Source: Amycolatopsis bullii
Lineage (GTDB): Bacteria > Actinomycetota > Actinomycetes > Mycobacteriales > Pseudonocardiaceae
Length of the DNA stretch: 64,000 nucleotides
Direction: 5' to 3'
Assembly: GCF_014654205.1 (NCBI RefSeq)
Contig: NZ_BNAW01000019.1
Span: 62,001-126,000, forward strand
The position numbers and the translations under genes are program-made. A model generated the notes under the pieces. It was not told the DNA's origin and did no database searches. It was given only the letters and a program-made list of their open reading frames with translations. Below are positions 2,294 through 57,226 of this stretch, in pieces. Position 1 is the first letter of the stretch, and each line of letters opens with the position of its first letter.

Positions 2294-3040
2294 TCAGGCG
2301 CTCCCGTCCGGCAGGTGCCGGAAGAGCGCGCCGAGCGAGCGGACGAGCCGGTGCTGCCCGGTCAGGCGCAGGCCCTCCCAGACCGTGACCTGGTTGGCGG
2401 TCAGCACGGGCTTGCCGAGCGCGGCCTCCACGGCGTTGATCTCGCCGAGGGTGCGCATGGCGGTGTCCGGCACGAGCACCGCCTGGGCGTCCGGGTGGTC
2501 GTGGCTCACGGCGAGCTCGACGACGGCCTCCGGGCTCATCGCGCCCACCTCGGCGGCCGTGACGATGTCCGCGCTGGCCATCGAGACGACCTCGATGCCG
2601 CCGGCCCGGAGGAAGTCCACGAACAGCCGGGCGATGTCGTCCGGGTAGCTGGCGGCGACGGCGACCCGCTTGACGCCCAGCGCACGCGCGGCGTGCACGA
2701 ACGCGAAGGAGGTGCTGGAGGCCGGGACACCGGCGACGGCGGCGAGGCGGTCGGCCTGGTCGCGGGCGCCCTCCCAGCCGTAGACGAAGCTGCCGCTGGT
2801 GCAGGCCCAGATCACCGCGGCGGGCTCGTGCTTGGCGAGGAGGGCGGCGCCGTCGGCGAGGCGGGCCTCGCTGCCGAGGTCGAGCAGCTCGGCCACCGCG
2901 TGCTTGTCGGTGCCGTAGATGTGCTCGACCGCCAGCCGGATGTCGCCCTCGTCGACGGCCATGCCGCCGAGGAGCTGTTCGGCCAGCGGGTAGTCGTCTT
3001 CGGCCGCGTGGTCGGGGTAGATGAAACCGATGGTGGTCAC
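2294..3040 (-). CDS. Maleate isomerase/Asp-Glu racemase-like protein lacking the second Cys
   Basis: A 248-residue cytosolic protein of the Asp/Glu racemase superfamily, closest in look to maleate isomerases and arylmalonate decarboxylases. The GTG at 3040 is chosen because GGAGG lies 6 bases upstream and the product then begins MTTIGFIYPDH, the usual start of the fold. The N-terminal-lobe catalytic Cys is present (Cys80 in WACTSGSFVYG). The position where family members carry the second catalytic Cys reads VPDTAM, with Asp192 instead. Its paralog upstream (3101-3841) keeps both Cys. Single-Cys chemistry is known for arylmalonate decarboxylases, but there the retained Cys is the C-terminal one, so activity cannot be inferred. 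It may be a divergent isomerase or a non-catalytic partner of the neighbour. Confidence 0.8.
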   Translation of the reverse strand: MTTIGFIYPDHAAEDDYPLAEQLLGGMAVDEGDIRLAVEHIYGTDKHAVAELLDLGSEARLADGAALLAKHEPAAVIWACTSGSFVYGWEGARDQADRLAAVAGVPASSTSFAFVHAARALGVKRVAVAASYPDDIARLFVDFLRAGGIEVVSMASADIVTAAEVGAMSPEAVVELAVSHDHPDAQAVLVPDTAMRTLGEINAVEAALGKPVLTANQVTVWEGLRLTGQHRLVRSLGALFRHLPDGSA

Positions 3041-3062
3041 GGAACCTCCGGAGGGGACGCAA

Positions 3063-3074
3063 ATTGTCGACAAT
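3063..3074. promoter_or_regulatory. Palindromic GntR operator candidate, copy 1
   Basis: A perfect 12-bp inverted repeat, ATTGTCGACAAT, sits 22 bases upstream of the GTG of the 2294-3040 gene, between the two racemase-like genes. The same motif with one central change occurs at 3904-3915. The size and TTGT..ACAA form suit a FadR-type GntR dimer, and the GntR gene is in the same operon. The position suggests an internal promoter or autoregulation. Binding is inferred. Confidence 0.6.
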
Positions 3075-3100
3075 CCTAGAGGGGAGGTCAAGGAAAACCT

Positions 3101-3841
3101 TCACGACACGTCACGGAGCCACCGTCCGGGTCCGACGATGGGCAGGTCCATCCGGCGCAGGCACGCCCACATGGTCAGCTGGTTGGCGGTGAGCACCGGC
3201 TTGCCGAGCGCGGTTTCCAGGGGTTCGATCAGGTCGTAGGTGGGGAGGTTGGTGCAGCTGACGAAGATCGCTTCGGCGTCGCCGTGGTCGGCGGCGAGGA
3301 TGCGCTCGGCGATGGTCCGGTAGCTGACCTTCCAGATGCCGCCGCCCAGGCCGAGGTGGTCGCTGGCGACGGTGGTGACGTCCAGCTCGGCGAGGAAGTC
3401 GTGCAGGGCGCGGGTCAGGTCGGCGTCGTACGGCGTGAGCACCGAGACGCGGTGGAGGTCGAGCTGGTGCAGCACTTCGGCCAGCGCGCCCGAGGTGGTG
3501 ACGGCGTCCGGTGCGCCGGCGTCGCAGATCGCCTTGGTCAGCGAGCGCTCGTAGTCGACGCCGTTGACGAAGCTGCCCGACGTGCAGAGGTAGGCGACGA
3601 CCTCGGGCTCGACGTGCAGCACGTCGCGGGTGGCACTGGCCAGGTGGTGGCTGTCGCTGACCAGGCGGGCCATCTCCATGCTGACCGGCACGGGCTCGTA
3701 CGGCGTGCGGGCGAGGTGGAGGGACACCTCCATCGGCACCCAGCGCCAGAGCTCGCGCTCCAGCGCGAGGTCGAAGGGAGCGATGACGCCGATGCCGCGT
3801 TGCGCCAGCGGGCCGTCGAACGCCAGGAAGTCGAAATCCAA
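3101..3841 (-). CDS. Maleate isomerase/Asp-Glu racemase family protein with both catalytic Cys
   Basis: A 246-residue cytosolic enzyme of the Asp/Glu racemase superfamily, the intact paralog of the gene just downstream. Both expected catalytic cysteines are present, Cys86 in YLCTSGSFVNG and Cys196 in FVSCTNLPTYDL, as in maleate cis-trans isomerases, where one Cys attacks the double bond and the other acts as acid. The TTG at 3841 is used as start because a GGAGG lies 8 bases before it; no ATG is available nearby. It is the first gene of a minus-strand run with the second isomerase-like gene and GntR. With an amidase and a dehydrogenase divergently placed, a maleamate/maleate or similar dicarboxylate route is plausible. 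A racemase or decarboxylase role is not excluded. Confidence 0.85.
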   Translation of the reverse strand: MDFDFLAFDGPLAQRGIGVIAPFDLALERELWRWVPMEVSLHLARTPYEPVPVSMEMARLVSDSHHLASATRDVLHVEPEVVAYLCTSGSFVNGVDYERSLTKAICDAGAPDAVTTSGALAEVLHQLDLHRVSVLTPYDADLTRALHDFLAELDVTTVASDHLGLGGGIWKVSYRTIAERILAADHGDAEAIFVSCTNLPTYDLIEPLETALGKPVLTANQLTMWACLRRMDLPIVGPGRWLRDVS

Positions 3842-8472: not shown

Positions 8473-9294
8473 TCAGAGGGTGAACCGAGAGCCGTCCGGT
8501 GGGAGCGTTGCACCCGCGGCCAGGACCGCCGCGTGCTCGGGGGACGCCGGGTCGAGGACCGGGTTCGTGTTGTTGACGTGCGTGAACGCCCACCGCCGCC
8601 CGGCCACCCGGGGCAGGCCGGCCGTGATCGGCAGGTGGCCCATCGCGAGCTGGTCCGGGCCGCCCACCCCGGCCATCTCGTCCGGCGCGTAGAACGTCCC
8701 GTCCAGCAGCACCAGCGAAGCGTCGGCGACGAACTCGTCGAACCCCGCGGGCCAGCTGCGCAGGCACGGCGCGTACACCAGCACGCCACCGGTCGCCGGG
8801 TCCGAGATGCGGTACGCGACCACCCAGGGGCCATCGGAAGCCGAGGCGTACTTCGGCCGCTTGTCGCTCACCGGCAGCACCTCGACCCGCAGGCCCGGAA
8901 GGTCCACAACGGACGACCACGTCCAGCCGCCGTAGCTGTCCACGACAGAAGAAAACGGCGACAACGCGGTCAGCACCGCCGGTGGCGCCCACACCGGCAG
9001 GCCGCCCGACTCGCGCAACATCAGCAGGCCCAGCGTGTGGTCGAGTTCGGCGTCCGTGAGCAGCACCCCGCGCAGCGGGATCTCGCGCGGCCCGGGCCCG
9101 GCCCGCAGCTCCGGCGTCCCGAGGATCTGCGCCCGGATGTCCGGGGAGCAGTTCAGCAGGTACCAGCCGTCGCCCGCGCTGATCGCGGCGCAGTCCTGCG
9201 TGCGCGGCGGCAGCCCCGCTGTGCACAGAACGCACGCACAGTTCCACTGTGGACACCCGCCGCCCGCCGCGGTGCCGAGCAGGATCACCTTCAC
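8473..9294 (-). CDS. pqqB: PqqB, PQQ biosynthesis metallo-beta-lactamase-fold protein
   Basis: A 273-residue protein of the PqqB family, a metallo-beta-lactamase-fold protein of PQQ biosynthesis proposed to act as a hydroxylase on the Glu-Tyr-derived intermediate. It opens MKVILLGTAAGGGCPQWNCACVLC, the diagnostic PqqB start with a Cys-rich zinc-binding segment, and contains LTDAELDHTLGLLMLRES in place of the usual HxHxDH metal motif, as PqqB proteins do, plus FTHVNNTNP near the end. The GTG at 9294 overlaps the pqqE stop by 4 bases (GTGA), which fixes the start. It is the last gene of the pqqA-C-D-E-B operon. Confidence 0.95.
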   Translation of the reverse strand: MKVILLGTAAGGGCPQWNCACVLCTAGLPPRTQDCAAISAGDGWYLLNCSPDIRAQILGTPELRAGPGPREIPLRGVLLTDAELDHTLGLLMLRESGGLPVWAPPAVLTALSPFSSVVDSYGGWTWSSVVDLPGLRVEVLPVSDKRPKYASASDGPWVVAYRISDPATGGVLVYAPCLRSWPAGFDEFVADASLVLLDGTFYAPDEMAGVGGPDQLAMGHLPITAGLPRVAGRRWAFTHVNNTNPVLDPASPEHAAVLAAGATLPPDGSRFTL

Positions 9295-10355
9295 CGGCGC
9301 ATGACCAGGTCGGAGACACCGGGGCGGGACAAGACCAGATCGACCAGCGCGCGCTGCGGCGACCGCGAGCACACCGGGTCGGTGGCCGCGGCGTCGCCGG
9401 TGAGCAGGAACGCCTGGCAGCGGCAGCCGCCGAAGTCGAGCCCGCGGCGGTCGCACGTGCGGCACGGCTCGGCCATCCACTCCTCGCCGCGGTAGGCGTT
9501 GAACGACGGCGACTCGTACCAGATCTCCGACAACGGAGTATCCCGTACCGAGGACAGCGCAAGCGTCGAGATCGCCGACGCCGCCGGGCACGGCAGCACG
9601 GTCCCGTCCGGCGCCACCGTCAGCTGCCGCGCACCCCAGCCGTACATGCACGGCTTCGGGTACGGCTCGTGGTAGTCGGCGACGACGTAGACGATCTCCA
9701 TCGTCCCCCGCAACCGGGAAACCGCCGCGCGGACCACCGGCTCGGCCGCGGCCAGCTGGGCAGCGGTCGGCATCAGCGCGTCCCGGTTGCGCAGCGCCCA
9801 GCCGTAGTACTGCGTGTTCGCCAGTTCCAGCCGGTCCGCGCCCATCCGCTCGGCCAGCTCGATGATCCCGGGCAGCTGGTCGTGGTTCTGCCGGTGCAGC
9901 ACGACGTTCAGCGACAGCGGCAGCCCGGCTTCCTTCACCAGCGCGGCCGCCACCAGCTTGCGGTCGTGCGCCTTGGCCCCGGCCAGCAGGTCGGCTCGCT
10001 CCCGCGTCGCACCCTGCGCCGACAGCTGGACGTGCGCCAGCCCGCGCGAAACGAGGTCGTCGAGCCGCGCGGCCGTCAGGCCGAGTCCCGAGGTGACCAG
10101 GTTGACGTAACAGCCGAGCTCGTGCGCGTGGGAGACCAGCGCGGGCAGGTCCGGCCGGAGCAACGGCTCACCGCCGGACATGTGCACTTGGAGCACACCC
10201 AGTTCCCGCGCCTGGGACAGCACCGACAGCCATTCCTCAGTGGACAGCTCGACGTCCCGGGTGGTCAGTTCGACCGGGTTGGAGCAATAAGGACAGTGCA
10301 GCGGACAGCGGTGGGTCAGCTCGGCCAGCAGGCCCAGCGGCGGGCTCACGTCCAT
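9291..10355 (-). CDS. pqqE: PqqE, radical SAM enzyme of PQQ biosynthesis
   Basis: A 354-residue cytosolic radical SAM enzyme that cross-links Glu and Tyr side chains of the PqqA peptide, the first committed step of PQQ formation. The 4Fe-4S/SAM site is Cys17-x3-Cys21-x2-Cys24 (RCPLHCPYC). SGGEPLLRPDL follows at about residue 60. The C-terminal SPASM part has auxiliary cluster cysteines in PCPAAS, CRTCDRRGLDFGGCRCQAF and PVCSRS. The ATG at 10355 overlaps the end of pqqD by 10 bases. The neighbouring pqqD supplies the peptide chaperone, so the module is complete for peptide modification. Confidence 0.96.
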   Translation of the reverse strand: MDVSPPLGLLAELTHRCPLHCPYCSNPVELTTRDVELSTEEWLSVLSQARELGVLQVHMSGGEPLLRPDLPALVSHAHELGCYVNLVTSGLGLTAARLDDLVSRGLAHVQLSAQGATRERADLLAGAKAHDRKLVAAALVKEAGLPLSLNVVLHRQNHDQLPGIIELAERMGADRLELANTQYYGWALRNRDALMPTAAQLAAAEPVVRAAVSRLRGTMEIVYVVADYHEPYPKPCMYGWGARQLTVAPDGTVLPCPAASAISTLALSSVRDTPLSEIWYESPSFNAYRGEEWMAEPCRTCDRRGLDFGGCRCQAFLLTGDAAATDPVCSRSPQRALVDLVLSRPGVSDLVMRR

Positions 10356-10612
10356 GCGACGACCCGCCGTTCACCCAGCCGGGACAGCACCGCGAGGACG
10401 TCCTGCGCGACGACACCGGTGTAGCGCAGGGAAAGCGCCGTCGTGATCTCGGTGACGGATCGGGCGCCGTCGCACAGTTCGAGCACCGCGGCCGCCGTGG
10501 CGTTCGGGACCAGGACACCCTCGGGGAACAGCAGCACGTGCGTCTCCCGGACGTGGTCGAAGGACAGCCGCACGCCGCGGCGCAACCGGGGAACGGACTC
10601 GGCGGTGATCAC
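10346..10612 (-). CDS. pqqD: PqqD, peptide chaperone (RiPP recognition element)
   Basis: An 88-residue protein that binds the PqqA peptide and presents it to PqqE. It has the RRE architecture: an N-terminal beta sheet (PRLRRGVRLSFDHVRETHVLLFPEGVL) and a C-terminal helix-turn-helix-like region (AAAVLELCDGARSVTEITTALSL). The GTG at 10612 overlaps the pqqC stop by 4 bases and gives the normal PqqD length; longer in-frame extensions run into pqqC. It is a separate gene here, not fused to PqqC as in some bacteria. Confidence 0.94.
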   Translation of the reverse strand: MITAESVPRLRRGVRLSFDHVRETHVLLFPEGVLVPNATAAAVLELCDGARSVTEITTALSLRYTGVVAQDVLAVLSRLGERRVVAWT

Positions 10613-11298
10613 GCGGCCGCCCGTTCGATCGCGTCGAGCATCGACCACAGGACGTCGCACTTGAACGACAGCGCGGCGATCGCGCGGTCCTGCTGTTCGC
10701 GCGTGACGCAGTGGCGGACCACGATGTCGAGCGTGTCCTTGCCTTCGCCGGAAACCTTGTCGATGCGGTTGGTGAAGTAGGCGAGGTCCTCGGGGGAGAT
10801 CCACGCGTAGTGCGCGAGCATGTCCGCGACCCGCTGCTGCATCAGGTGCCCGGCGAACATCTCGGTCAGTCCCGAGGCGACGGCCTCCCACCACGGTTTC
10901 GTCCGGGCGAAAGTCACGTACGCGTCCACGGCGAACCGGACCCCGGGAGCGACGTGCCGCTCATCGAGAACCTCGTCGCGGGACAACCCGACGGCCGTGC
11001 ACAGCCGCAGCCAGCGCTCGATCCCGCCGGTGCCGGCGCTCACGCCGTCGTGGTAGACGATCCGGTCGAGCCACTGCCGGCGGATCTCCGGCAGTGGGCA
11101 GTTGCTGATGATCGCCGCGTCCTTCTGCGGCAGCACGCACTGGTAGTACCAGCGGTTCGCCGCCCAGACCCGCAGCGCGCGCTCGTCGAGCTCGCCCGCG
11201 TGCAGCCGGCGGTGGAACGGGTGCGTTCCCCAGTACCGGCCGGAAAGACCGCGCAGGGCGTCGATGAATGCGCTTTCCGGAAGTGGCTCGACCGGCAT
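10609..11298 (-). CDS. pqqC: PqqC, pyrroloquinoline-quinone synthase
   Basis: A 229-residue cofactorless oxidase that performs the last step of PQQ synthesis, ring closure and eight-electron oxidation of AHQQ. The protein is nearly all helical and shows the family stretches YWGTHPFHRRLHAGEL, WAANRWYYQCVLPQKDAAI, RQWLDRIVYHDG and LPEIRR. The conserved late segment ISPEDLAYFTNRIDKVSGEGKDTLDIV is also present. The start at 11298 lies 3 bases after the pqqA stop, and the end overlaps pqqD, so all pqq genes from pqqA onward should be on one message. Confidence 0.95.
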   Translation of the reverse strand: MPVEPLPESAFIDALRGLSGRYWGTHPFHRRLHAGELDERALRVWAANRWYYQCVLPQKDAAIISNCPLPEIRRQWLDRIVYHDGVSAGTGGIERWLRLCTAVGLSRDEVLDERHVAPGVRFAVDAYVTFARTKPWWEAVASGLTEMFAGHLMQQRVADMLAHYAWISPEDLAYFTNRIDKVSGEGKDTLDIVVRHCVTREQQDRAIAALSFKCDVLWSMLDAIERAAA

Positions 11299-11517: not shown

Positions 11518-12882
11518 CTACCTTACTGCAGCTTCGAGTTCCACCAAGGCTGTGTCGAGGTGTGTCAGGATTCGCTGCAGGTGCGGAACGCTGCGGCGGC
11601 AGCCGGTGATGCCGAAGTCGAGGTGGTCGCCGTTGCTGGTCAGCGTGATGTTCACGGCCTGGCCGTCGAGCAGCACCGAGGCCGGGTAGATGCCGTCGAG
11701 CTGGGCGCCGTTCCAGTACATCTGCTTGCGCGGGCCGGGCACGTTCGAGATCACCAGGTTGAACGGCGGCCGCGTGTTCTTCACGATGCCGGGGATCGGC
11801 GAGATGCCGAGCTGCGCGACGTTCACCGCGGACAGCAGCAGCGTCTGCACCGGCGTCAGCTCCGAGAACAGCCGCTTGCCGTTGCGCATCGACTGGTGGA
11901 TGGTGACGAGCCGCTTGCCCGCGTCCGGCAGGTCGGTGGCCAGGTTGCACAGCAGCGCGCCGATGTTGTTGCCGGCCGCCTCGCCCGGGTCGTTCTGGCG
12001 GCGCAGCGACACCGGCACCATCGCGATGAGCGGCGCGTCCGGCAGGGCGCGCTGTTCGATCAGGTAGTCCCGCAGCGCACCCGAGCACATCGCGAGCACG
12101 ACGTCGTTGCGCGACACCCCGGCCGCGGTGGCCACCTGCCGGACGCGGTCCAGCGGCCACTTCTGCGCCGCGAACCGCCGCGCGCCGCCGATCGGCACGT
12201 TCAGCATCGTCTTCGGCGCCTGCCCCGGCAGGGTCAGGGTGTGTTCACCGAACGCCTCCCGCGCCACCTTCATCGCGGCCGGCGCCAGGCTCGCGAGCTG
12301 GTTGGCGGTCTTGCGCGCGGTCCCGAGCAGCGACCGCGGGCGCTTTTCGCGCTCGCCGCCGGGCTCGCGCCGGGTGCCCCACCACGGCGGGCAGTCCCTG
12401 TCCGCCGGGTCGTCCGAGAGGGTGCCCTGCAGCTGGCGCAACGCCGAAACGCCGTCCATCAGCGCGTGGTGGACCTTGGTGTAGACGGCGAACCGGCCGT
12501 CGTCGAGGCCCTCGATGAGGTGGGTCTCCCAGAGCGGCCGGTGCCGGTCGAGCAGGGTGCTGTGCCAGCGGCCGGTCAGCTCGAGCAGCTCGCGGACGCG
12601 GCCCGGCCGCGGCAGCGCCGAATGCCGGAAGTGGTAGTCGAGTTCGAGGTTGTCGTCGGTCGCCCAGGCCACGTGGCCCATCGTGTTCACCGGCCGGGCC
12701 GGGCGGCGCCGGAACACCGAGCGCATGTTGTCCGATTCGAGGAGGCTGTTCCGGACATCGCGCAGGTACTCGTCGCCCGCGCCCTCGGGTTTCTTGAACA
12801 GCTGGAGACCGCCCACGTGCATCGGATGCTCGCGCGTTTCGACGAGGAGGAACATCGAATCGGTCACGGGCATCATCGCCAT
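11518..12882 (-). CDS. Wax ester synthase/diacylglycerol acyltransferase (WS/DGAT)
   Basis: A 454-residue bifunctional acyltransferase of the bacterial WS/DGAT family, which makes triacylglycerol or wax esters from acyl-CoA at the membrane or lipid-droplet surface. The catalytic HHxxxDG motif is KVHHALMDG, with His138, His139 and Asp143. Other family marks are PMHVGGLQLF near the N-terminus, the PLWETHLIEGL segment, and the C-terminal NLVISNVPGPRKQMYWNGA. The ATG at 12882 has a GAGAGGTGATG stretch upstream. Length is normal for the family. It is divergent from the TPP enzyme operon and stands alone. Confidence 0.93.
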   Translation of the reverse strand: MAMMPVTDSMFLLVETREHPMHVGGLQLFKKPEGAGDEYLRDVRNSLLESDNMRSVFRRRPARPVNTMGHVAWATDDNLELDYHFRHSALPRPGRVRELLELTGRWHSTLLDRHRPLWETHLIEGLDDGRFAVYTKVHHALMDGVSALRQLQGTLSDDPADRDCPPWWGTRREPGGEREKRPRSLLGTARKTANQLASLAPAAMKVAREAFGEHTLTLPGQAPKTMLNVPIGGARRFAAQKWPLDRVRQVATAAGVSRNDVVLAMCSGALRDYLIEQRALPDAPLIAMVPVSLRRQNDPGEAAGNNIGALLCNLATDLPDAGKRLVTIHQSMRNGKRLFSELTPVQTLLLSAVNVAQLGISPIPGIVKNTRPPFNLVISNVPGPRKQMYWNGAQLDGIYPASVLLDGQAVNITLTSNGDHLDFGITGCRRSVPHLQRILTHLDTALVELEAAVR

Positions 12883-13063
12883 GGGACATCACCTCTCGAG
12901 CTCGGCACGCCGACTCTACGCGCTCGGCGGCCGCCGGTGGATCACGTTCTACTCCGCCTCGGATGACCGCCCGCGGCGCAGGGGAAACGTCCGTGCCACC
13001 GATGGCCGAACGCGGGTGATCGGCGGCGGGGCTGGCGTGAGCCAACCCTCGTCGAGGGGCCGA

Positions 13064-13093
13064 TTGCCAGATCGTTGAACGATCTGGCAGTAT
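13064..13093 (+). promoter_or_regulatory. Promoter with 25-bp palindromic operator for the TPP-HyuAB operon
   Basis: A perfect inverted repeat with 12-bp arms (left arm TGCCAGATCGTT, 13065-13076; right arm 13078-13089) surrounds one central base. A plausible -35 TTGCCA (13064-13069) and -10 CAGTAT (13088-13093) are separated by 18 bases, and the palindrome fills the space between them. The start point would be at or next to the GTG at 13101, giving a leaderless message. The GntR protein at the end of the operon (19228-19941) is the most likely ligand-responsive repressor. Confidence 0.6.
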
Positions 13094-13100
13094 CCGCGCC

Positions 13101-14723
13101 GTGGCTGTGAGTGGTGCTCGGGAGCTGGTGGACGCGCTGGAAGCGCTCGGAACGGAGATCGTCTTCGGCCTTCCGGGGGTGCACAACCTGCCACTGTGGG
13201 AAGCGCTCGGTGAAACCCGCATCAAGCTGGTCGGCGTTCGCCACGAACAGACCGCCGGGTACGCCGCCGACGGCTACGCCCGCGCCACCGGCAAGCTCGG
13301 CGTCGCGCTGGTCACCACCGGCCCCGGCGCGGCCAACACCCTCGGCGCGGTCGGCGAAGCCATGGCGTCGGCGGCTCCGGTACTGGTCATCGCGACCGAC
13401 ATCCCGTCGACGCTGCGGCGGCCCGGCGTCGTCCGCGGTGTGCTGCACGAGACGTCCGACCAGCAGGCGATGTTCGCGCCGGTGACCAAGGGCGGCTTCA
13501 CCGTGCGGGCCCCGGACCAGATCGGCACCACCGTCCACCGCGCCGCCCGGCTCGCCCAGCTGCCGCAGAGCGGCCCGGTCTACCTCGGCGTGCCGACCGA
13601 CTACCTGCGCGAACAGGTGCCGCACCGGCGTCCGCCCGCCCCGCACCGCAAGCCCGACGTCGACGTCCCCGACCTCGCGCGGGCCGAGGCGATGCTGTCC
13701 GACGCGGACCAACCGCTGATCTGGGCCGGCGGCGGCGCGCTGCGCTCGGGCGCGGGCGAGGCGATTGGGGCCCTCGCCGAGAAGCTCGCCGCGCCGGTGA
13801 TCACCACGTTCGCCGCCCGCGGGCTGCTGCCGCTCGACCACCCGTGCCTGGCGCCGAACCCGGTGCACACGCCGGAGGTCGGCGAGCTGTGGGACGAAGC
13901 CGACGTCGTGCTGGCCATCGGCACCGACTTCGACGGCCTGATGACGCAGAACTGGCGGATGCCGCAGCCGCCCCGGCTGATCGCGGTCAACGTCGACGCC
14001 GACGACGCCGCGAAGAACTACCGGCCCGACCTCACGCTGGTCGGCGACGCGCGCTCGATCGTCGAGCGGCTGCTGCCGAAGCAGCGGGACGGCCTCGACG
14101 ACGTCACGCTGCGGCTGGCCGGGATCGGCCGGCGCGTGCGCCAGCGGATTCGCGACGAGGAACCGCAGGCCTACGACTTCCTGTCCACTTTGGACGAGGT
14201 GCTGCCGACGGACGCCGTGCTCGTCTCGGACATGTGCGTCGCCGGGTACTGGGTCGGCGGCTTCCACCGGGTGCGGGCGCCGCGCAAGCTCGCCTACCCG
14301 ATGGGCTGGGGCACCCTCGGCTACGGCTTCCCGGCGTCGCTCGGCGCGGCCGCGGCCGGCACCGGGCGGGCCATCTGCATCACCGGCGACGGCGGTTTCC
14401 TCTACGGCTGCGGCGATCTGGCCACACTGGCGCAGGAGCAGCTGCCGGTCACTGTCGTCCTCGTCGACGACGGCGGGTACGGGATGCTGCGCTACGACCA
14501 GGACCGCGAGGGCCTGCCGCACCGCGGGGTCGACTGGGACAGCCCGGACTTCGTCGGCCTGGCCCGGTCGTTCGGGGTGCACGCCGACCGCGTCTCCGGC
14601 TTCGGGCGGGCGTTCCGGCGGCTGCTCGGCGAGTTCGTCGAGTCGGACGAGCCGAACGTGCTGGTCGTCAAGGCCAAGCTCAAGCCGCCGCTGAACACCT
14701 CGCCGCGGTGGTACCGGACATGA
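13101..14723 (+). CDS. Thiamine diphosphate-dependent enzyme, acetolactate synthase-like
   Basis: A 540-residue three-domain ThDP enzyme: PYR domain about 1-170, central domain about 190-320, PP domain about 360-530. The ThDP-activating Glu is Glu49 (RHEQTAGYAADGYAR). The cofactor Mg motif starts GDGGFLYG at about residue 429 and ends DDGGYGML instead of the common NNxxYG. It is shorter than anabolic acetolactate synthases, and no regulatory subunit gene is adjacent, so a catabolic lyase or decarboxylase role is likelier. The GTG start fits the upstream promoter. It is the first gene of a tight operon with hydantoinase A/B-type subunits, an SDR and GntR; its stop overlaps the next start (ATGA). 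The substrate is unknown. Confidence 0.87.
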   Translation: MAVSGARELVDALEALGTEIVFGLPGVHNLPLWEALGETRIKLVGVRHEQTAGYAADGYARATGKLGVALVTTGPGAANTLGAVGEAMASAAPVLVIATDIPSTLRRPGVVRGVLHETSDQQAMFAPVTKGGFTVRAPDQIGTTVHRAARLAQLPQSGPVYLGVPTDYLREQVPHRRPPAPHRKPDVDVPDLARAEAMLSDADQPLIWAGGGALRSGAGEAIGALAEKLAAPVITTFAARGLLPLDHPCLAPNPVHTPEVGELWDEADVVLAIGTDFDGLMTQNWRMPQPPRLIAVNVDADDAAKNYRPDLTLVGDARSIVERLLPKQRDGLDDVTLRLAGIGRRVRQRIRDEEPQAYDFLSTLDEVLPTDAVLVSDMCVAGYWVGGFHRVRAPRKLAYPMGWGTLGYGFPASLGAAAAGTGRAICITGDGGFLYGCGDLATLAQEQLPVTVVLVDDGGYGMLRYDQDREGLPHRGVDWDSPDFVGLARSFGVHADRVSGFGRAFRRLLGEFVESDEPNVLVVKAKLKPPLNTSPRWYRT

Positions 14724-16738
14724 GGGTCGGCGTCGACATCGGCGGCACGTTCACCGACCTCTGCGCGGTGGACGAGACCGGGATCGTCGCCGTCGGCAAG
14801 GTCCTGACCACGCACGACGAGCCGGCCCGGGCGGTCGAGGAGGGCTTGGCGGCCCTGCTCCCGGACCTCTCGGCCGTGGAGCAGGTGGTGCACGGGACGA
14901 CGCTGGTCACGAACGCCCTGATCGAGCGCACGGGCTCGCGGACCGCCCTGCTGGCCACCGCGGGCTTCCGGGACGTCCTGGAGATGCGCCGCGAGCACCG
15001 GTACGAGCTCTACGACCTGCACCTGGAACTGCCCGCGCCGCTCGTGCCGCGGCACCTGCGGTTCGACGTCCCGGAGCGGATCCTCGCCGACGGGTCCGTC
15101 CACACCGGACTGGACGAGTCCGTTGTGGCGCGGCTCGGCCGCGAGCTGGCCGAGAGGGGGATCGAGGCCGTCGCGGTCTGCTTCCTGCACGCGTTCACCA
15201 ACCCCGCGCACGAACGCCGGGCGGGCGAGATCCTCGCCGAGGTCGCACCCGGCCTGCGGGTGGCGCTGTCCTCCGACGTCGTCCCCGAGATCCGCGAGTT
15301 CGAGCGGACGTCGACCACGGTCGCCAACGTCTATGTCCAGCACCTCACCGAGCGCTACCTGCGCGACCTCGAACGGCGGCTGCACCGGCTGGGGATCCGC
15401 CGCGCGCCGCACATCATGCTGTCCAACGGCGGACTGGCCACTGTGGACACCGCGGCCCGGTACCCGATCCGCATCCTGGAGTCCGGCCCGGCCGGTGGCG
15501 CGCTGGCGGCCGCGGAGCTGGGGCCGCCGGACCTGCTGGCCTTCGACATGGGCGGCACGACGGCGAAGCTGTGCCTGATCGCGGGCGGCGCGCCGCTGGT
15601 GACCCACGAGTTCGAAGTGGACCGCAAGTACCGGCTGCGGCCCGGCTCCGGGCTGCCGGTGCGGGTGCCGGTCACCGACATGATCGAAATCGGCGTCGGC
15701 GGCGGCTCGATCGCCCGCATCGACGCGCTGGGGCTGCTGACCGTCGGCCCCGATTCGGCCGGGTCCGAGCCCGGCCCGGTCTGCTACGGTCGCGGCGGCA
15801 CCGAGCCCACGGTCACCGACGCCGACCTCGTGCTCGGCTACCTCGACCCCGGTTACTTCCTGGGCGGCGAGATGCGCCTGGACGCCGAAGCGGCGAGAGC
15901 AGTGCTCCGCGAGAAGATCGCCGATCCGCTCGGGGTGAGTGTCGAAGAGGCCGCCTGGGGCATCCACACGAGCGTCAACGAGGACATGGCCAACGCCGCC
16001 CGCGTGCACGCCGTCGAGCGCGGGCAAGACCCGGCGAAACTGCCGATGTACACCTTCGGCGGGGCGGGTCCGGTGCACGGCGCCGGGGTCGCGCGGGCGC
16101 TCGGGGCGCCGTCGGTCGTCGCGCCGCCCGCCGCCGGGGTGCTGAGCGCGGCCGGGTTCCTCACCGCGCCGCTGGCGTTCGACTTCGTGCGGTCGGCGCG
16201 CGCGGCCGTCCACGGCCTGGCGTGGGCGCAGGTCGACGCGCTGTTCGCCGAGATGGAAGCCGAAGGTGCGGCGCTGCTCGCGAAGTCCGGAGTGGACGAC
16301 GTGACGCACCACCGCGTCGCCGAGATGCGCTATGCCGGGCAGGGCTACGAAATCCGCGTCCCGGTCCACGACGGTCCCTGGCCCGGAACGTTGATCGACG
16401 AGTTCACGCGCACCTACCGCGCGCTCTACCGGCGCACCGGACCCGAGGTCGGTGTCGAGGTGCTGAACTGGCGGGTCGTGTCGAGCGGGCCGAAACCGGC
16501 CGTGGTGCTGCGGCTTCCCGGGCAGCTCACCGGGAACGCGCGCAAGGGCACCCGGCGGGCCTGCTTCCCGTCGACTGGTGGATTTGTCGACACGGCTGTG
16601 TTCGACCGGTACCGGCTCGAACCCGGCGCGCGGGTCGACGGACCGGCCATCGTGGAGGAACGCGAGTCCACTCTGGTCGTCCCGCCCGGCGCGCACTGCG
16701 TCGTCCGGGAGGACGGCGCGCTGGAGGTGACGGTGTGA
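14720..16738 (+). CDS. Hydantoinase/oxoprolinase family subunit A (ATP-binding)
   Basis: A 672-residue protein of the HyuA/5-oxoprolinase/acetone carboxylase beta family. These enzymes use ATP to activate a carbonyl or amide, for either amide hydrolysis or carboxylation. The N-terminal phosphate-binding motif is DIGGTFTDL (residues 6-14). HGTTLVTNALIERTG, the second nucleotide motif LESGPAGG and FDMGGTTAKLCLI follow. The C-terminal part has the family's GGAGPVHGAGVARALG. It overlaps the TPP gene upstream (ATGA) and subunit B downstream (GTGA), so stoichiometric production is likely. Whether it is an N-methylhydantoinase, oxoprolinase or carboxylase cannot be told from sequence alone. Confidence 0.92.
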   Translation: MRVGVDIGGTFTDLCAVDETGIVAVGKVLTTHDEPARAVEEGLAALLPDLSAVEQVVHGTTLVTNALIERTGSRTALLATAGFRDVLEMRREHRYELYDLHLELPAPLVPRHLRFDVPERILADGSVHTGLDESVVARLGRELAERGIEAVAVCFLHAFTNPAHERRAGEILAEVAPGLRVALSSDVVPEIREFERTSTTVANVYVQHLTERYLRDLERRLHRLGIRRAPHIMLSNGGLATVDTAARYPIRILESGPAGGALAAAELGPPDLLAFDMGGTTAKLCLIAGGAPLVTHEFEVDRKYRLRPGSGLPVRVPVTDMIEIGVGGGSIARIDALGLLTVGPDSAGSEPGPVCYGRGGTEPTVTDADLVLGYLDPGYFLGGEMRLDAEAARAVLREKIADPLGVSVEEAAWGIHTSVNEDMANAARVHAVERGQDPAKLPMYTFGGAGPVHGAGVARALGAPSVVAPPAAGVLSAAGFLTAPLAFDFVRSARAAVHGLAWAQVDALFAEMEAEGAALLAKSGVDDVTHHRVAEMRYAGQGYEIRVPVHDGPWPGTLIDEFTRTYRALYRRTGPEVGVEVLNWRVVSSGPKPAVVLRLPGQLTGNARKGTRRACFPSTGGFVDTAVFDRYRLEPGARVDGPAIVEERESTLVVPPGAHCVVREDGALEVTV

Positions 16739-18435
16739 GCGTCGACCCCATCGTCGTCGGGCTGTTCGGCAACCGCCTGCACTCGATCCTCGCCGAACAG
16801 CAGAACGCCCTCGTCAACACGGCCTTCTCCGCGGTCGTGCGCGAGTCGCTCGACCTGGCCTGCGCGGTGTTCGACGCGCGCGGCGAGATGATCGGCCAGT
16901 CCGTCGGCGGCACGCCGGGGCACATCAACGCGATGGCGACCGGCATGCACCACTTCGTCGCCGAACACCCGCCGGAGACCCTCGAACCCGGGGACGTGCT
17001 GCTCACCAACGACCCGTGGCAGACCGCGGGGCAGATCAACGACATCACGGTGGCCACCCCGGTGTTCCTGGACGGCCGGCTGGTCGCCTGGTTCGCGTCC
17101 TGCTGCCACGCCCCGGACATCGGCGGGCGGCTGGTGTCCGCCGAAGCCCACGAGGTCTTCGAGGAAGGCCTGCGCCTGCCGATCCTCAAGTTCCTGCGCG
17201 CGGGCGAGGTCGACGCCGGCCTGGAACGGCTGATCCGGGCGAACGTCCGGACCCCGGAGGAGACCATCGGCGACCTGTACGCGCAGGTCACCGGCAACGA
17301 GGTCGGCGCGGCGAGCCTGCTGCGGCTGCTGGACGAGCTCGGCCTGGACAGCCTCGACGAAGTCGCCGCCGAGATCATGGACCGCTCGGAGCGGGCGCTG
17401 CGCGACGCGCTGCGGGAACTGCCCGACGGCACGTACACCAACGAAGTCGTCACCGACGGCTTCGACGACGAAGAGATCGTCCTGCGGATCACGGCCACTG
17501 TGGACGGTGACGAGATCCACCTCGACTTCGCGGGCTCCTCGCCGCAGAGCCGTCGCGGGATCAACGTGGTGCTCAACTACACGCGCGCGTATGCGTCGTT
17601 CGCGGTCAAGGCGGCGATCTCGCCGGAGGTGCCGCACAACGCCGGCTCGTTCCGGCCGGTGCACGTCACCGCCCCCGAAGGCTCGGTGCTGAACTGCCTG
17701 CCGCCGGCACCGGTCGCCTCCCGGCACCTGATCGGCCACTTCCTGCCGTCGCTGCTGATCGGCGCGCTGCCCGCCGCGGCGATCGCGCCGGGCGCGGACG
17801 CGCTGTGGATGACCATCTGGCGCGGGCCCGGGTTCATGCTGAACGTCTTCCAGACCGGCGGGATGGGCGCGCGGGCGGACAAGGACGGCCTGTCCACCAC
17901 CGGGTTCCCGAGCGGTTTGCGGTCGACGCCGACCGAGGTGATCGAAACCATGGCGCCGCTGGTCCAGCACACGCGGGAACTGCGCGTGGACTCCGGCGGC
18001 GCGGGCCGGTTCCGCGGCGGACTCGGACAGGTGACCACGATGGGTGCACTCGGCGTGCCGTCCTGGAGCGTCAACGGGAACGTGGACCGGGTCCGCGCCG
18101 CCGCGTCCGGTGTGGACGGCGGACAGCCCGGTGCGCCGGGTCGCTTCGGCCTGCGCGGCGGGGCGGACCTGCCCGCGAAGAGCCGGGTGCCGCTGGCGGC
18201 CGGGTCCGTTGTGGACGTCACGCTGCCCGGCGGCGGGGGGTACGGGCCACCGGCCGGACGACCGGTGGCGGCGGTGCTCGCCGACGTCGTCGAGGGGTAC
18301 GTCTCGGTGGCCGCGGCGCGCGAGGTGTACGGCGTCGAGGTGCGGTACCTCGGGGCTCCGGACGCGCTCGTCCGGCTGCCCGAGGACTACGCGGTGGACG
18401 AAGAGCAGACAGCACGACTGAGAGCGGGGCAGTGA
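16735..18435 (+). CDS. Hydantoinase/oxoprolinase family subunit B
   Basis: A 566-residue partner of the preceding subunit, HyuB type. Diagnostic stretches are DPIVVGLFGNRLHSILAEQQ at the start, the metal-site-like GHINAMATGMHHF and GDVLLTNDPWQ, then FASCCHAPDIGG, and the glycine-rich C-terminal GGAGRFRGGLGQ and LPGGGGYGPP. The start GTG at 16735 overlaps the HyuA stop. In characterised relatives A and B form one heteromeric enzyme. Here they sit between a TPP enzyme and an SDR, an arrangement that does not match the usual hydantoin-utilisation cluster, because no hydantoin racemase, carbamoylase or permease is present. Confidence 0.92.
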   Translation: MSVDPIVVGLFGNRLHSILAEQQNALVNTAFSAVVRESLDLACAVFDARGEMIGQSVGGTPGHINAMATGMHHFVAEHPPETLEPGDVLLTNDPWQTAGQINDITVATPVFLDGRLVAWFASCCHAPDIGGRLVSAEAHEVFEEGLRLPILKFLRAGEVDAGLERLIRANVRTPEETIGDLYAQVTGNEVGAASLLRLLDELGLDSLDEVAAEIMDRSERALRDALRELPDGTYTNEVVTDGFDDEEIVLRITATVDGDEIHLDFAGSSPQSRRGINVVLNYTRAYASFAVKAAISPEVPHNAGSFRPVHVTAPEGSVLNCLPPAPVASRHLIGHFLPSLLIGALPAAAIAPGADALWMTIWRGPGFMLNVFQTGGMGARADKDGLSTTGFPSGLRSTPTEVIETMAPLVQHTRELRVDSGGAGRFRGGLGQVTTMGALGVPSWSVNGNVDRVRAAASGVDGGQPGAPGRFGLRGGADLPAKSRVPLAAGSVVDVTLPGGGGYGPPAGRPVAAVLADVVEGYVSVAAAREVYGVEVRYLGAPDALVRLPEDYAVDEEQTARLRAGQ

Positions 18436-18437
18436 AC

Positions 18438-19223
18438 ATGGGTCGGTTGGCCGGCAAGGTCGCGGTGGTCTTCGGCGGCGCGCGGGGCATCGGCCTCGCC
18501 ACCGTGAAGGAGTTCCTCGCCGAGGGGGCGACGGTCTTCGCGTCCGACATCCGCGAGCCCGCGGAAGCACTCGACGGCTACCGCCATTCCATAGTGGACG
18601 CCACCGACGAGAACGCCGTGGCGGCGTTCGTCGACGGCGTGCTGGCCGAGGCCGGCCGCATCGACGTGCTGTTCAACAACGTCGGCATCCACCTCGGCAA
18701 GTCCCTGGTGGACACCACGCTCGCCGAGTTCGACCACATCTTCGCGCTCAACGTCCGGGCCGCCTTCCTCGGCACCCGCGCCGTGCTGCCGCACATGATC
18801 GCGCAGAAGGCGGGCAGCATCATCACGACGTCGTCGAACGGCGGCGTGATGGGCCGTCCCGGCGACCCGGTGTACAACGCCACCAAGCACGCGCTGGTCG
18901 GGCTGACGAAGTCCATCGCCGTCGCGCACGCGCACCAGGGCATCCGGGCCAACACGGTGAACCCGGGCGCGATCGACACCGACATGCTGCGCAGCACGCT
19001 GAACTCCCCGGAGGAGTTCGAGACCAAGCAGCACCAGCTGGTCGCCAGCACGCCCGCGGCGCGCGTCGGCGAGGCCTGGGAGGTCGCGAAGGCCGTGGTG
19101 TTCCTGGCGAGCGACGAGTCCCGGTTCGTCAACGGCGTCGTGCTGCCGATCGACGGCGCGAAGGCCGCGGGGGCGATGCCGGGGAACCGGTACAGCCTCG
19201 ATTTCGAACTCGGCGTCAGGTAG
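18438..19223 (+). CDS. Short-chain dehydrogenase/reductase
   Basis: A 261-residue cytosolic SDR. The nucleotide motif is GGARGIG (13-19), with Asp37 in the position that usually favours NAD. NNVG is at 80-83, the catalytic Ser at about 132-133, and the Tyr146-x3-Lys150 pair is in VYNATK. The C-terminal cofactor loop is NPGAIDTDM. The ATG at 18438 is preferred because an AGAGCGGGG site stands 8 bases upstream; a GTG 6 bases earlier overlaps the previous stop and is an alternative. As fourth gene of the operon it should oxidise or reduce the substrate or product of the TPP/hydantoinase-type steps. Confidence 0.9.
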   Translation: MGRLAGKVAVVFGGARGIGLATVKEFLAEGATVFASDIREPAEALDGYRHSIVDATDENAVAAFVDGVLAEAGRIDVLFNNVGIHLGKSLVDTTLAEFDHIFALNVRAAFLGTRAVLPHMIAQKAGSIITTSSNGGVMGRPGDPVYNATKHALVGLTKSIAVAHAHQGIRANTVNPGAIDTDMLRSTLNSPEEFETKQHQLVASTPAARVGEAWEVAKAVVFLASDESRFVNGVVLPIDGAKAAGAMPGNRYSLDFELGVR

Positions 19224-19227
19224 TGCC

Positions 19228-19941
19228 GTGACCGTCGATGCCTCGGGACTGGAGAGCGCGCGGCCCCTGCTGGAGCGCAGCGGTACGGCCGAGCGGGTCG
19301 CGGCGATCCTGCGCCAGTACATCACCGACGGCGTCTTCGCCCCCGGTGAACGGCTGTCCGAGCCGGTGATCAGCTCGGCGCTCGGCGTCTCGCGCAACAC
19401 GCTGCGCGAGTCGTTCCAGCTGCTCGCCCACGAGCGGCTGGCCGTGCACGAGCTGAACCGCGGGGTGTTCGTGCGTGAACTGACCACAGAGGACATCGAG
19501 GACCTCTACGTCGTCCGCCGGGCCACCGAATGCGGGGCCCTGCGCCGCGCGGCGGAGTTGTCCGCAGTGGACCTTTCGCAGGTGGAAGCGGCACTGCGCG
19601 ACGGCCGGGTGGCCGCGGCGGCCGAGGACTGGCCGTCGGTCGGCACCGCCAGCATCCACTTCCACCAGGCCCTCGCCGACCTGGCCGGCAGCGAACGCCT
19701 GTCCGCGACGATGCGCCAGGTGCTCGCCGAGACGCGGCTGTTCTTCGTGCTCAACGAGAACACGCGCGAGTTCTACGAGCCGTTCCTCGACTGCCACGAG
19801 CAGATCCTGCGCGACCTGCGCCGCGGGCGGTTCGACGCCGCGGAGGCCGCGCTGGACCGCTACCTGCGTGACGCCGAAGCCCGGCTGCTCGAACTCAGTA
19901 CGCCGGCGGCCGGAAGCGGATCACCGGGAACGCCACGCTGA
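19228..19941 (+). CDS. GntR family regulator, FadR subfamily
   Basis: A 237-residue transcription factor. The winged helix lies at about residues 20-88 (VAAILRQYITDGVFAPGERLS, then SSALGVSRNTLRESFQLLAHERL), followed by a helical FCD domain (IHFHQALADLAGSERL, then FLDCHEQILRDLRRG with metal-binding His positions). The GTG starts 4 bases after the SDR stop, so it is the last gene of the operon. The 25-bp palindrome in the operon promoter is the obvious target. The 3' end overlaps a convergent small gene by 47 bases; the last ~20 residues are low complexity. Confidence 0.88.
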   Translation: MTVDASGLESARPLLERSGTAERVAAILRQYITDGVFAPGERLSEPVISSALGVSRNTLRESFQLLAHERLAVHELNRGVFVRELTTEDIEDLYVVRRATECGALRRAAELSAVDLSQVEAALRDGRVAAAAEDWPSVGTASIHFHQALADLAGSERLSATMRQVLAETRLFFVLNENTREFYEPFLDCHEQILRDLRRGRFDAAEAALDRYLRDAEARLLELSTPAAGSGSPGTPR

Positions 19942-20146
19942 TCGCGTACGGCTTGCGGACCGTGACCGGGTGGTACCGCCCATCGGGGCCGGCCACCCAG
20001 CTGCGCAAGGCGATCGTGCGGACGACGGAACACGTGCCGTAGCCGGCGGTGGCCGGGGCGGCCGTGGCGGCCGGTGCCGAGGTGAGCAGCACGGCGGCCA
20101 CGGCGGCGGCGGTTCGCGCACGTCGGAAGCACACCACCCCACTCAA
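19895..20146 (-). CDS. Small secreted hypothetical protein
   Basis: An 83-residue protein with a clear Sec-type signal peptide: basic FRRAR, hydrophobic TAAAVAAVLLTSAPAATA, and an AxA-type cleavage site near residue 29. The mature part of ~55 residues (GYGTCSVVRTIALRSWVAGPDGRYHPVTVRKPY) has no domain I recognise. The start is a weak TTG; a GTG shortly inside gives the same signal peptide. It overlaps the 3' end of the GntR gene on the other strand, which lowers confidence. Confidence 0.5.
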   Translation of the reverse strand: MSGVVCFRRARTAAAVAAVLLTSAPAATAAPATAGYGTCSVVRTIALRSWVAGPDGRYHPVTVRKPYAISVAFPVIRFRPPAY

Positions 20147-20220
20147 CCCCGGGACAACCGCCGACCGGAAAGGATTCGAGCCGGTTCAAATCCGCCGTCT
20201 CCGCTGCTACCGTCGGTCGG

Positions 20221-21207
20221 GTGTTCAAGCTGCGGGTCGACGCGGAGACGGTGGCCAGGACACGGTTTTCCCCGTCCCTCGCGGCGGAGTCCCTCGCCTG
20301 GCTGAAGCTCGCCGCCGACGCGGGACGGCACCCGGTGTTCGGCGACCCCGGCCCGCTCGCCCGCGGCGCGCTCGCCCACCCCGACGTCGCCCTGCTCCTC
20401 GACCTGCTGCCGCGCCCCGGCGAGGTCTACACGCCGGACCTGCTCACCCCGCAGCCCGGCACGGCCACCCGGCCGCGTGACCTGCTCGACGAGCAGATCG
20501 CGCGGATCGAGGCGACTCCGCAGGACGAGGTCGAGACACAGGTGCTGGCCCACACGCAGGTCCACTGGACCAGACCGCTGCCGGTGACCGCCCGGCGCAG
20601 CGTCGAGTCCGGGTCGATGCCCCGGCGCCTGGCCAACGGCCTCGCCCGGTTCTGGCGGGACGCGCTGGCCGAGGACTGGGCCGGCCTGCAGGCGGTCCTC
20701 GACCGGGACATCACCCACCGCGCGCAGGCGATCGCCCGTCACGGCGTCGGCGGGGTGCTCGGCAGCCTGCATCACACGATCGGCTGGGCCGGCGACGCGA
20801 TCACGGTGGTGAAGCCGTTCGACGGCGAGGCCGACGTCTCCGGCCGGGAGCTGGTCCTCGCGCCGGGGGTGCTCAGCTGGCCGGTCATCAGCATCCAGAT
20901 CGACGTGCCCGGCCAGGTCGTCCTCTGCTACCCCGCGCACGGCGTCGGCACCGGCGCCGGCCACCGGCCGGGCCGGATCGCGCCGGTCGTCGGGGCGGCC
21001 CGGGCGGCGCTGCTGACCGAGCTCGACCTCGCGCGGTCGACCGCGGAGCTCGCCGCCCGGACGGGGTACAGCCCGGGGACCGTGTCGTATCACTTGAGCG
21101 CGTTGCACCGGGCGGGTCTGGTGAGCAAGGTGCGGGATGGGCGGTACGTGCTCTATCGGCGGACCGCCCAGGCCGTCGCCCTCCTCGAAGGAGGCGTCAA
21201 CAGCTGA
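20221..21207 (+). CDS. Winged-helix transcriptional regulator with C-terminal ArsR-like HTH
   Basis: A 328-residue protein. The recognisable part is at the C-terminus (about residues 265-315): ALLTELDLARSTAELAARTGYSPGTVSYHLSALHRAGLVSKVRDGRYVLYRRT, an ArsR-type winged helix with wing. The N-terminal ~240 residues have no known motif and probably bind an effector, an arrangement seen in DUF5937-like actinobacterial regulators. The GTG start has no strong ribosome site. It ends 11 bases inside the convergent glycosidase gene. Its target is unknown. Confidence 0.8.
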   Translation: MFKLRVDAETVARTRFSPSLAAESLAWLKLAADAGRHPVFGDPGPLARGALAHPDVALLLDLLPRPGEVYTPDLLTPQPGTATRPRDLLDEQIARIEATPQDEVETQVLAHTQVHWTRPLPVTARRSVESGSMPRRLANGLARFWRDALAEDWAGLQAVLDRDITHRAQAIARHGVGGVLGSLHHTIGWAGDAITVVKPFDGEADVSGRELVLAPGVLSWPVISIQIDVPGQVVLCYPAHGVGTGAGHRPGRIAPVVGAARAALLTELDLARSTAELAARTGYSPGTVSYHLSALHRAGLVSKVRDGRYVLYRRTAQAVALLEGGVNS

Positions 21208-43782: not shown

Positions 43783-44115
43783 CTGCGCCGCCTCGCCGGT
43801 CGCCCGCCCGTTTCCGGGCGGCCGCGCGGATTCCGATCGTCTAGTCATTCTCGTAGGTCTCTTTGACACGCAGCGCGAAGCCCCGTGAGACTCGGTCGGG
43901 TCACCGATCGAACGATGCGGCCGTGGCGTGGCGCGGGCATCGCGGATGCCGGTCCGGCACGGGCTCGTCGCCGCCGGTCGTGACGCCTGCCGCCGATGTC
44001 GGGACCACGTTGCCGCGAAGCGGTTTCGTGCCGCTTCCGCGAGAACCCGGGTGTCGGCGGAGTCACCCGCCCGCCCCGCCACCGCGTCGGGGCCACCGAC
44101 GAAACGGAATGGCCT

Positions 44116-44901
44116 GTGGAGATCATCGGAGACGGCTTCCTCTCGCGGCACCTCGCCCGCTCGTTCGCCGACCGCCATGCGGACGTCACGGCCATCGCGG
44201 CGGGCGTCACCAAGACCACGTCCGCGACGCTGGCGGACTTCGACCGGGAAGCGGCGCTGGTCTACGACGTCGTGCGCCGCGCACGGCGGGCCGGCCGCAC
44301 GGTCGTGTTCTTTTCCACCGCATCGGACTCGATGTACGGCACGCACGACTGCCCGGGGCTGGTGGAAGGTCCGGTCTACCCGGTTTCCGCCTACGGCAGG
44401 CACAAACTCGGGCTGGAGGAGATCCTCGCCCGGTCCGGCGTGGACTACCTCGCGTTCCGGCTCAGCCACATCGTCGGCGAGGGACAGCGGCCCCACCAGC
44501 TGATCCCGTCGCTCGGGCGGCAGATCCTCGGCGGTTCGGTGACCGTGCACCGCAACGCCCACCGCGACCTGCTCGACGTGGAACACCTGCTGCTGGCGCT
44601 GGACCGGGTGCTCGCGAGCGGCGTCCGGCAAGAGGTGATCAACGTGGCCTCCGGGGTGCTGGAGCCGATCGAGCGGATCGTCGACAGCATCGAGGACCGG
44701 CTCGGCGTGGTGGCGGAACGGACCACTGTGGACGTGCCGGTGGTGAGCATGCCCACGAACACCGACCGGCTGCGCCGGCTGGTCCCGGAGTGGGCCGGGC
44801 TGGGCTTCGGCGAGGACTACCTGCCGCGGCTGCTGGACAAGTACCTCGACGTGCTCTGCGCGCGGGTGGCCGGGCCGGCGCGCACGCCGCAAGCGCTGTA
44901 G
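44116..44901 (+). CDS. NAD-dependent epimerase/dehydratase-type sugar reductase
   Basis: A 261-residue SDR-extended protein. The GTG at 44116 gives MEIIGDGFLSRHLARSFADRH, a short form of the nucleotide motif (GxGFxxRxL) seen in nucleotide-sugar reductases of antibiotic clusters. The catalytic Ser-Thr/Tyr region is FFSTASDSMYG, then VSAYGRHKLGLEE (Y-x3-K). SHIVGEGQRPHQLIPSLG and NVASGVLEPIERIVDSI follow. Upstream in-frame extension to 43996 has poor codon usage and is rejected. It is 65 bases before the PKS and probably acts as the 4-ketoreductase or a similar enzyme for the cluster's deoxysugar. Confidence 0.82.
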   Translation: MEIIGDGFLSRHLARSFADRHADVTAIAAGVTKTTSATLADFDREAALVYDVVRRARRAGRTVVFFSTASDSMYGTHDCPGLVEGPVYPVSAYGRHKLGLEEILARSGVDYLAFRLSHIVGEGQRPHQLIPSLGRQILGGSVTVHRNAHRDLLDVEHLLLALDRVLASGVRQEVINVASGVLEPIERIVDSIEDRLGVVAERTTVDVPVVSMPTNTDRLRRLVPEWAGLGFGEDYLPRLLDKYLDVLCARVAGPARTPQAL

Positions 44902-44966
44902 GAGTTCACTTAGTCCTCGTTCCCGAGGGCCCGGGCGGCCGGTGCGGCTGCCGGATACTCGCCGCC

Positions 44967-57113: not shown

Positions 57114-57226
57114 GGGAACGGGGTGGCGAAACGCGGATGCGCGGTCGAGTTCCGGGTTCGGGACGGGACCGCGCAATTCGCGCGCGCCATAAAACCCGAA
57201 GCCCGGAAGAATGCGTTACGACATGA

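Follow-up and report, generated by a model that had tools for sequence, protein, structure and literature searches.

The window, the whole 64,000-nucleotide stretch of Amycolatopsis bullii DNA analysed here (from an assembly of 9.38 Mb in 123 contigs), contains five closely spaced genes on the plus strand. The first (13101-14723) encodes a ThDP-dependent enzyme of 540 residues with TPP_enzyme_N/M/C domains. It is followed by hyuA (14720-16738), for an ATP-binding subunit of 672 residues (Hydant_A_N/Hydantoinase_A/Hydant_A_C domains and ATP motifs), hyuB (16735-18435), for a metal-site subunit of 566 residues (Hydantoinase_B domain), an SDR gene (18438-19223; 261 residues, adh_short domain) and gntR (19228-19941), for a GntR/FCD regulator of 237 residues with GntR and FCD domains and a recognition helix, GVSRNTLRE, that includes Asn57. 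The ThDP gene and hyuA overlap by four nucleotides (ATGA), as do hyuA and hyuB (GTGA), whereas gaps of 2 nt and 4 nt separate hyuB from the SDR gene and the SDR gene from gntR. Pfam domains scored above cut-off in all five genes. Positions, overlaps and domains agree with the first-pass annotation, which had described four enzyme genes with 4-base overlaps or minimal spacing plus a dedicated GntR, and which was also right in seeing no racemase, carbamoylase or permease gene in the operon. Scanning 12860-20300 for promoters and terminators revealed neither kind of site.

A match to HyuA lies at this locus in 60 of the 80 genomes of the genus (58 full length, 2 broken), and in every one of these 60 it is on the same strand as, and at most 55 nt from, the ThDP match. 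The five-gene arrangement is therefore not a product of chance. Judged by dN/dS values of 0.04-0.46 against the loci of seven relatives (one of which, L098, has no gntR), all five genes look to be under purifying selection.

Several neighbouring features were read from the sequence. Genes resembling pqqB, pqqE, pqqD and pqqC occupy 8473-11298 on the minus strand; pqq matches occur in the fetched stretch of all 19 gntR-bearing genus loci with long flanks and of one of 20 others (L041), a co-occurrence that may merely follow clades. Further upstream, a GntR gene (1573-2292) adjoins two EutA/arylmalonate-decarboxylase-like genes (2294-3841). A similar EutA-like block with an amidase gene precedes a WS/DGAT gene and the ThDP gene in many loci of the family that have no HyuAB, and the two genes at 2294-3841 belong to a block other than the operon. 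Downstream, opposite-strand open frames of 4416 codons (43863-57113) and 4088 codons (44910-57176) perhaps represent a large modular synthase.

The palindrome and its probable regulator

A 25-bp palindrome at 13065-13089, 11 nt 5' of the ThDP start, reads TGCCAGATCGTT-G-AACGATCTGGCA, with 12-nt arms that are 100% complementary, and no other copy turns up in the genome when up to 3 mismatches are allowed. The first-pass annotation had overlooked it. We examined 39 genus loci with long flanks, selected from 79 ThDP loci because they were divergent or lacked HyuA. The core, GATCGTTNAACGATC, stands 12-38 nt 5' of the ThDP gene with 0-1 mismatch in 19 of the 19 loci that have gntR and with at most one mismatch in none of the 20 that lack it; because of shared ancestry these loci are not independent. 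The gntR-less loci that come closest to an exception, L036 with 2 mismatches and L034 with 3, look like decayed palindromes, and two loci (L098, L099) retain HyuAB and SDR but have neither gntR nor palindrome. Genome-wide, the exact core is found as a single copy in 56 of the 80 genus genomes and is absent from 24 (a backwards control gave none). It lies 16-30 nt 5' of the ThDP match in 52 of those 56; the four genomes that carry it elsewhere (G012, G021, G022, G071) do not have HyuA beside ThDP.

The regulator belongs to the FadR/FCD type (GntR helix-turn-helix 50.6 bits, FCD 67.2 bits, both above cut-off), and the core has the form GT-3 nt-AC in all 19 gntR loci, 0-1 mismatch being allowed; this form is the GntR operator consensus given in the extracts consulted of a published analysis (PMC4494728). 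The same extracts report that Asn at position 39 favours an A/T pair at the bases adjacent to the operator centre (PMC4494728). By our own placement of the helix, this position corresponds to residue 57 of the regulator. All 20 matches with an identity of 62% or higher have Asn at residue 57 (they represent 19 genomes, L026 and L092 being the same), and all 12 matches at 44-62% identity have Ser there (11 records, L060 and L124 being the same). The operator changes with it. Loci of other genera carry a sister palindrome, GATCGTCNGACGATC, with 0-1 mismatch and 49-117 nt 5' of HyuA, in 11 of 11 cases with gntR, and do not carry it in L056, which has no gntR, or in L064, where the GntR is only 38% identical. 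Asn57 is thus paired with TNA in the genus and Ser57 with CNG in other genera, in agreement with the residue/base correlation described in PMC4494728, as far as the extracts go. We think that the Asn or Ser of the recognition helix reads the base pair by which the two palindromes differ, and that the palindrome at 13065-13089 is very probably the operator of this GntR protein. Co-occurrence with gntR and co-variation with the recognition-helix residue both support a single regulon.

Two separable modules

The two parts of the operon have different distributions. ThDP orthologs occur in 79 of the 80 genus genomes and, at E values of at most 1e-110, in 201 of 390 genomes and 15 of 46 genera of the family. 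None of 20 ThDP loci fetched from outside the genus (L072-L091) has HyuAB; in 12 of them a GST-like gene and a divergently oriented WS/DGAT gene lie upstream of the ThDP gene. Conversely, 12 HyuA orthologs of other genera (L052-L063; 61-66% identity) have no ThDP gene beside them; a divergent GntR ortholog (46-52%) accompanies 11 of them (not L056), and an MHS-type symporter match lies in the fetched stretch of 11 (not L059). HyuAB and GntR occur without ThDP or an SDR of the operon's subfamily at 11 loci of other genera. Outside the genus each is found without the other, so ThDP and HyuAB-GntR represent two modules that came together within it. The ThDP gene is more widely spread, for which reason we take it as the older partner, and it was probably captured by the HyuAB-GntR module rather than the reverse. 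The comparison of ortholog neighbourhoods proposed in the first-pass annotation thus returned a ThDP-HyuA adjacency kept in 60 of 80 genus genomes and two separable modules elsewhere. Its view that the genes imply a single pathway survives insofar as operator and gntR mark one GntR-controlled unit; that all four enzymes serve one dedicated pathway is borne out only in part, as ThDP and HyuAB-GntR occur separately.

The association has also been undone. L092 retains ThDP, operator, SDR and GntR around missing HyuAB genes, and L047 contains, at 8763-9410, one open frame that fuses the start of hyuA to pieces of the SDR gene; hyuB is gone, and ThDP, operator and GntR remain around the fused frame. 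Both loci are clear remnants of HyuAB deletion. The remaining HyuAB-less loci of the genus, where the ThDP gene stands alone (for example L035 and L037) or with the SDR gene (L034, L036), likely reflect HyuAB loss as well. L093 and L094 have lost gntR and have broken HyuAB genes too.

Might the ThDP gene simply be a host gene, caught under the operator of a GntR-HyuAB-SDR pathway in which it has no role? The breadth of its distribution in the family and its recurrent GST-like and WS/DGAT neighbourhood would fit this proposal, and it is kept in 19 of the 20 genus genomes lacking HyuA at the locus, which is why its main role may lie outside the pathway. We nevertheless consider a mere bystander unlikely, albeit a reading of some weight, given the adjacency and strand shared with HyuA in all 60 genus genomes that have it there, the position of the operator directly 5' of the ThDP gene, and the appearance of other ThDP genes next to HyuAB. 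ThDP-like genes are present in seven of 110 loci examined (L060 duplicating the L124 record), and those of three distant loci, from subfamilies other than that of the operon, abut HyuAB directly. Their nearest models, none reaching its cut-off, are acetolactate synthase (L136, L137) and benzoylformate decarboxylase (L161); L136 also has genes read as hydantoin-racemase-, amidohydrolase- and allantoinase-like. What stands out here is the direct abutment alone, because the 17 PF02775 matches in this 9.4-Mb genome would lead one to expect, roughly, about three loci with such a gene somewhere in the stretch.

Other neighbours vary between loci. The SDR subfamily recurs near HyuAB in L064 (63% identity) and L119 (44%). 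A gene for a DAO-family oxidase (best PDB match 1y56_B) lies 5' of the ThDP gene, directly or a few genes off, in 15 of the 19 gntR genus loci and in none of the 20 without gntR. It lies upstream of the palindrome and so probably outside this transcription unit. An ornithine-cyclodeaminase-family gene follows gntR in seven of the 19 loci and follows the ThDP gene in L041, a locus that lacks both HyuAB and GntR.

HyuAB and its altered residues

Both subunits scored above the gathering thresholds of their families (Hydant_A_N 173.1, Hydantoinase_A 283.5 and Hydantoinase_B 491.2 bits), and in the alignment to CapA the HyuA motifs DIGGTFTD, DMGGT and GSEPGP correspond to DxGGTxTD, DxGGT and GxxPGP. 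By family models and PDB sequence matches, HyuA and HyuB are closest to the lactamase/hydantoinase branch. The best PDB sequence match for both subunits (400 and 185 bits) is N-methylhydantoinase (7hk5), which differs in being a single chain of 1288 residues with His at the position of Gln100 and Asp at that of Lys283. The caprolactamase models NF050156 and NF050157 gave 524.6 and 210.8 bits, below their cut-offs of 1000. CapAB, the caprolactamase of Pseudomonas jessenii (PDB 6yra), nonetheless shares with HyuAB the two-subunit build, the ATP motifs and three of four metal ligands, and the HyuB structure model (pLDDT 84) aligns with CapB over 542 residues (Z 32.8, rmsd 2.8).

The differences from CapAB concern the active sites. 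The predicted metal tetrad of HyuB is Asp40-Gln100-Asp103-His125 instead of the Asp-His-Asp-His of CapB, and Gln100 (codon 17032-17034) stands, by ungapped sequence alignment, at the place of the essential His99. According to the portions consulted of the CapAB study, CapB H99A is inactive (PMC8453981), and Gln100 could therefore alter or even abolish hydrolysis. In HyuA, Glu254 and Lys283 align with CapA Asn269 and Asp302 in the phosphoryl-acceptor region. The samples of both subunits were collected for their similarity to the window; they contain the window's own copy as well as one record present twice. Within them, position 283 of HyuA is Lys in 166 of 172 matches and Asp in 6. The 254/283 pair is Glu/Lys in 162; the others comprise three Gln/Lys, one Gly/Lys and six in which Leu or Met accompanies Asp. 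The position of HyuB Gln100 is Gln in 45 of 137 matches: all 36 with an identity of 60% or above, 6 of the 10 at 52-60%, none of 10 at 45-52%, 3 of 55 at 38-45% and none of 26 below. A quick HyuB tree of 131 rows gathers the main Gln clade (37 rows) with support 100 and needs four changes of the Gln label, at least two of which are forced by well-supported branches. From these counts and this tree, the His-to-Gln change is old and kept, and probably arose more than once. Our literature search, which covered titles and abstract openings, showed no paper on this change or on the gene set among those listed; within that scope it matches the first-pass annotation, which could name no pathway for these genes.

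Some HyuAB loci keep other company. L112, L113, L114 and L119 have a gene that we read as M24-peptidase-like 5' of HyuA and an MHS-type symporter 3' of HyuB, and L113, L114 and L119 carry an additional HyuAB pair, of the Asp type. Gln also marks a separate HyuB branch (L192, L199, L200), found alongside genes read as CoA-ligase-, Rieske-oxygenase- and ABC-transporter-like, possibly an N-heterocycle pathway.

Conceivably, HyuAB is instead a two-subunit ATP-dependent carboxylase, which would carboxylate a ketone made by the SDR and pass the product to the ThDP enzyme. An SDR together with a carboxylase would resemble alcohol-to-ketone routes. Acetophenone carboxylase (PDB 5l9w) is of the same superfamily, and HyuA Lys283 aligns with Lys281 of its Apc-alpha' subunit, where CapA has Asp302 (PMC8453981, in the portions consulted); it is at Apc-alpha' that bicarbonate is proposed to be phosphorylated (PMC5214803, likewise in part). 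That enzyme has extra subunits, however, and the operon has no gene for a further one; the acetone-carboxylase gamma family PF08882 had no match in the genome, in a search whose controls were equally silent and which therefore speaks for neither side. Moreover, HyuA and HyuB score far lower on the acetophenone-carboxylase models (285.3, 178.4 and 94.2 bits against cut-offs of 1500, 1250 and 1500) than on those for caprolactamase. We consequently regard the carboxylase as quite improbable. The first-pass annotation had left the choice among a cyclic amide, a ketone and an aromatic ketone. HyuA reaches 525 bits with the caprolactamase model but 285 and 178 with those for acetophenone carboxylase, all below cut-off, and ketone carboxylation is the weaker chemistry on sequence grounds.

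Still less probable, in our estimation, is a 5-oxoprolinase that would recycle pyroglutamate. MHS symporters often carry carboxylates, and the GntR-HyuAB loci of other genera, with their nearby MHS-type symporter in 11 of 12 cases, would suit such a one-step pathway. 5-Oxoprolinases also fall in the same superfamily, according to the consulted part of PMC8453981. Yet the formation of glutamate needs neither ThDP enzyme nor SDR, and a PxpA (LamB_YcsF) homologue is encoded elsewhere in the genome, so that a dedicated 5-oxoprolinase is probably present; after it was found, we judged 5-oxoproline unlikely as the substrate. ATP-dependent hydrolysis of a cyclic amide, at an altered site, is the most likely activity of HyuAB.

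A proposed pathway

What might the ThDP enzyme contribute? Its best NCBIfam model, over nearly the whole length, is that of 5-guanidino-2-oxopentanoate decarboxylase (NF005712), yet its 377.7 bits stay below the cut-off of 500. The best two acetolactate synthase models gave 280.9 and 280.6 bits against cut-offs of 538 and 509, and the others among the matches listed are also below cut-off. Most likely, it is a 2-oxo-acid enzyme. A single-sequence structure model (pLDDT 33.5) was set aside. At L087, a ThDP ortholog stands beside genes for a DAO, an aldehyde dehydrogenase (nearest model L-piperidine-6-carboxylate dehydrogenase, 342.8 bits, cut-off 730), CaiB and an acyl-CoA dehydrogenase, along with a gene read as a Leu/Glu-type dehydrogenase (for which NCBIfam gave no match at the limit used); L089 has a similar block without the DAO. 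Lysine or 2-aminoadipate catabolism, which this block brought to mind, was kept merely as a lead to the ThDP substrate, because an opposite-strand gene read as LysR separates the ThDP gene from the block.

We envision that a GntR-HyuA-HyuB module, perhaps with the SDR, settled 3' of the older ThDP gene in an ancestor of the genus and that its operator landed on the ThDP promoter. From this position, GntR would switch ThDP, hyuA, hyuB, SDR and gntR together, itself included. The operon would probably open and break down a small cyclic amide. The SDR would oxidise or reduce a carbonyl or alcohol group on this compound, which is probably carboxylated; HyuA would activate the ring amide with ATP, either directly or via carboxyphosphate, and HyuB would open the ring at a metal site with Gln in place of one His. 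Ring opening would yield an open-chain compound to be converted into a 2-oxo acid; in most sister species, the upstream gene for the DAO-family oxidase may supply the enzyme for this step. As no close copy of that oxidase was found in the present genome (best match 32%), the 2-oxo-acid step has no assigned enzyme here. Finally, the ThDP enzyme would decarboxylate or ligate the 2-oxo acid. As a whole, this account of a capture-made, substrate-induced catabolic operon, with GntR switching and cyclic-amide chemistry, is tentative, and we give it somewhat less than an even chance. A bolder extension would make HyuAB of the Gln and Glu/Lys type a distinct ATP-dependent class that, through its altered acceptor and metal sites, takes an anionic substrate and uses chemistry other than the classical zinc-assisted hydrolysis of lactams; its product would pass to a co-regulated ThDP enzyme of carbon-carbon chemistry, along a route not yet described. 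This we think clearly unlikely, if less so than the carboxylase.

Pairs of HyuA and HyuB are widespread among bacteria, and the names hydantoinase or 5-oxoprolinase are often given to them with no proof behind them. The clade described here can be defined by three residues (Gln100, Glu254 and Lys283), and it comes with a regulator that has one predicted target site and with genomes that form a natural set of presences and absences for each gene, so that the function of a whole HyuAB branch becomes directly testable. Its interest lies in this testability and in the conserved replacement of a catalytic ligand. If Gln100 truly forms part of the metal site and the enzyme is active, ideas on the mechanism of ATP-dependent lactamases would need revision.
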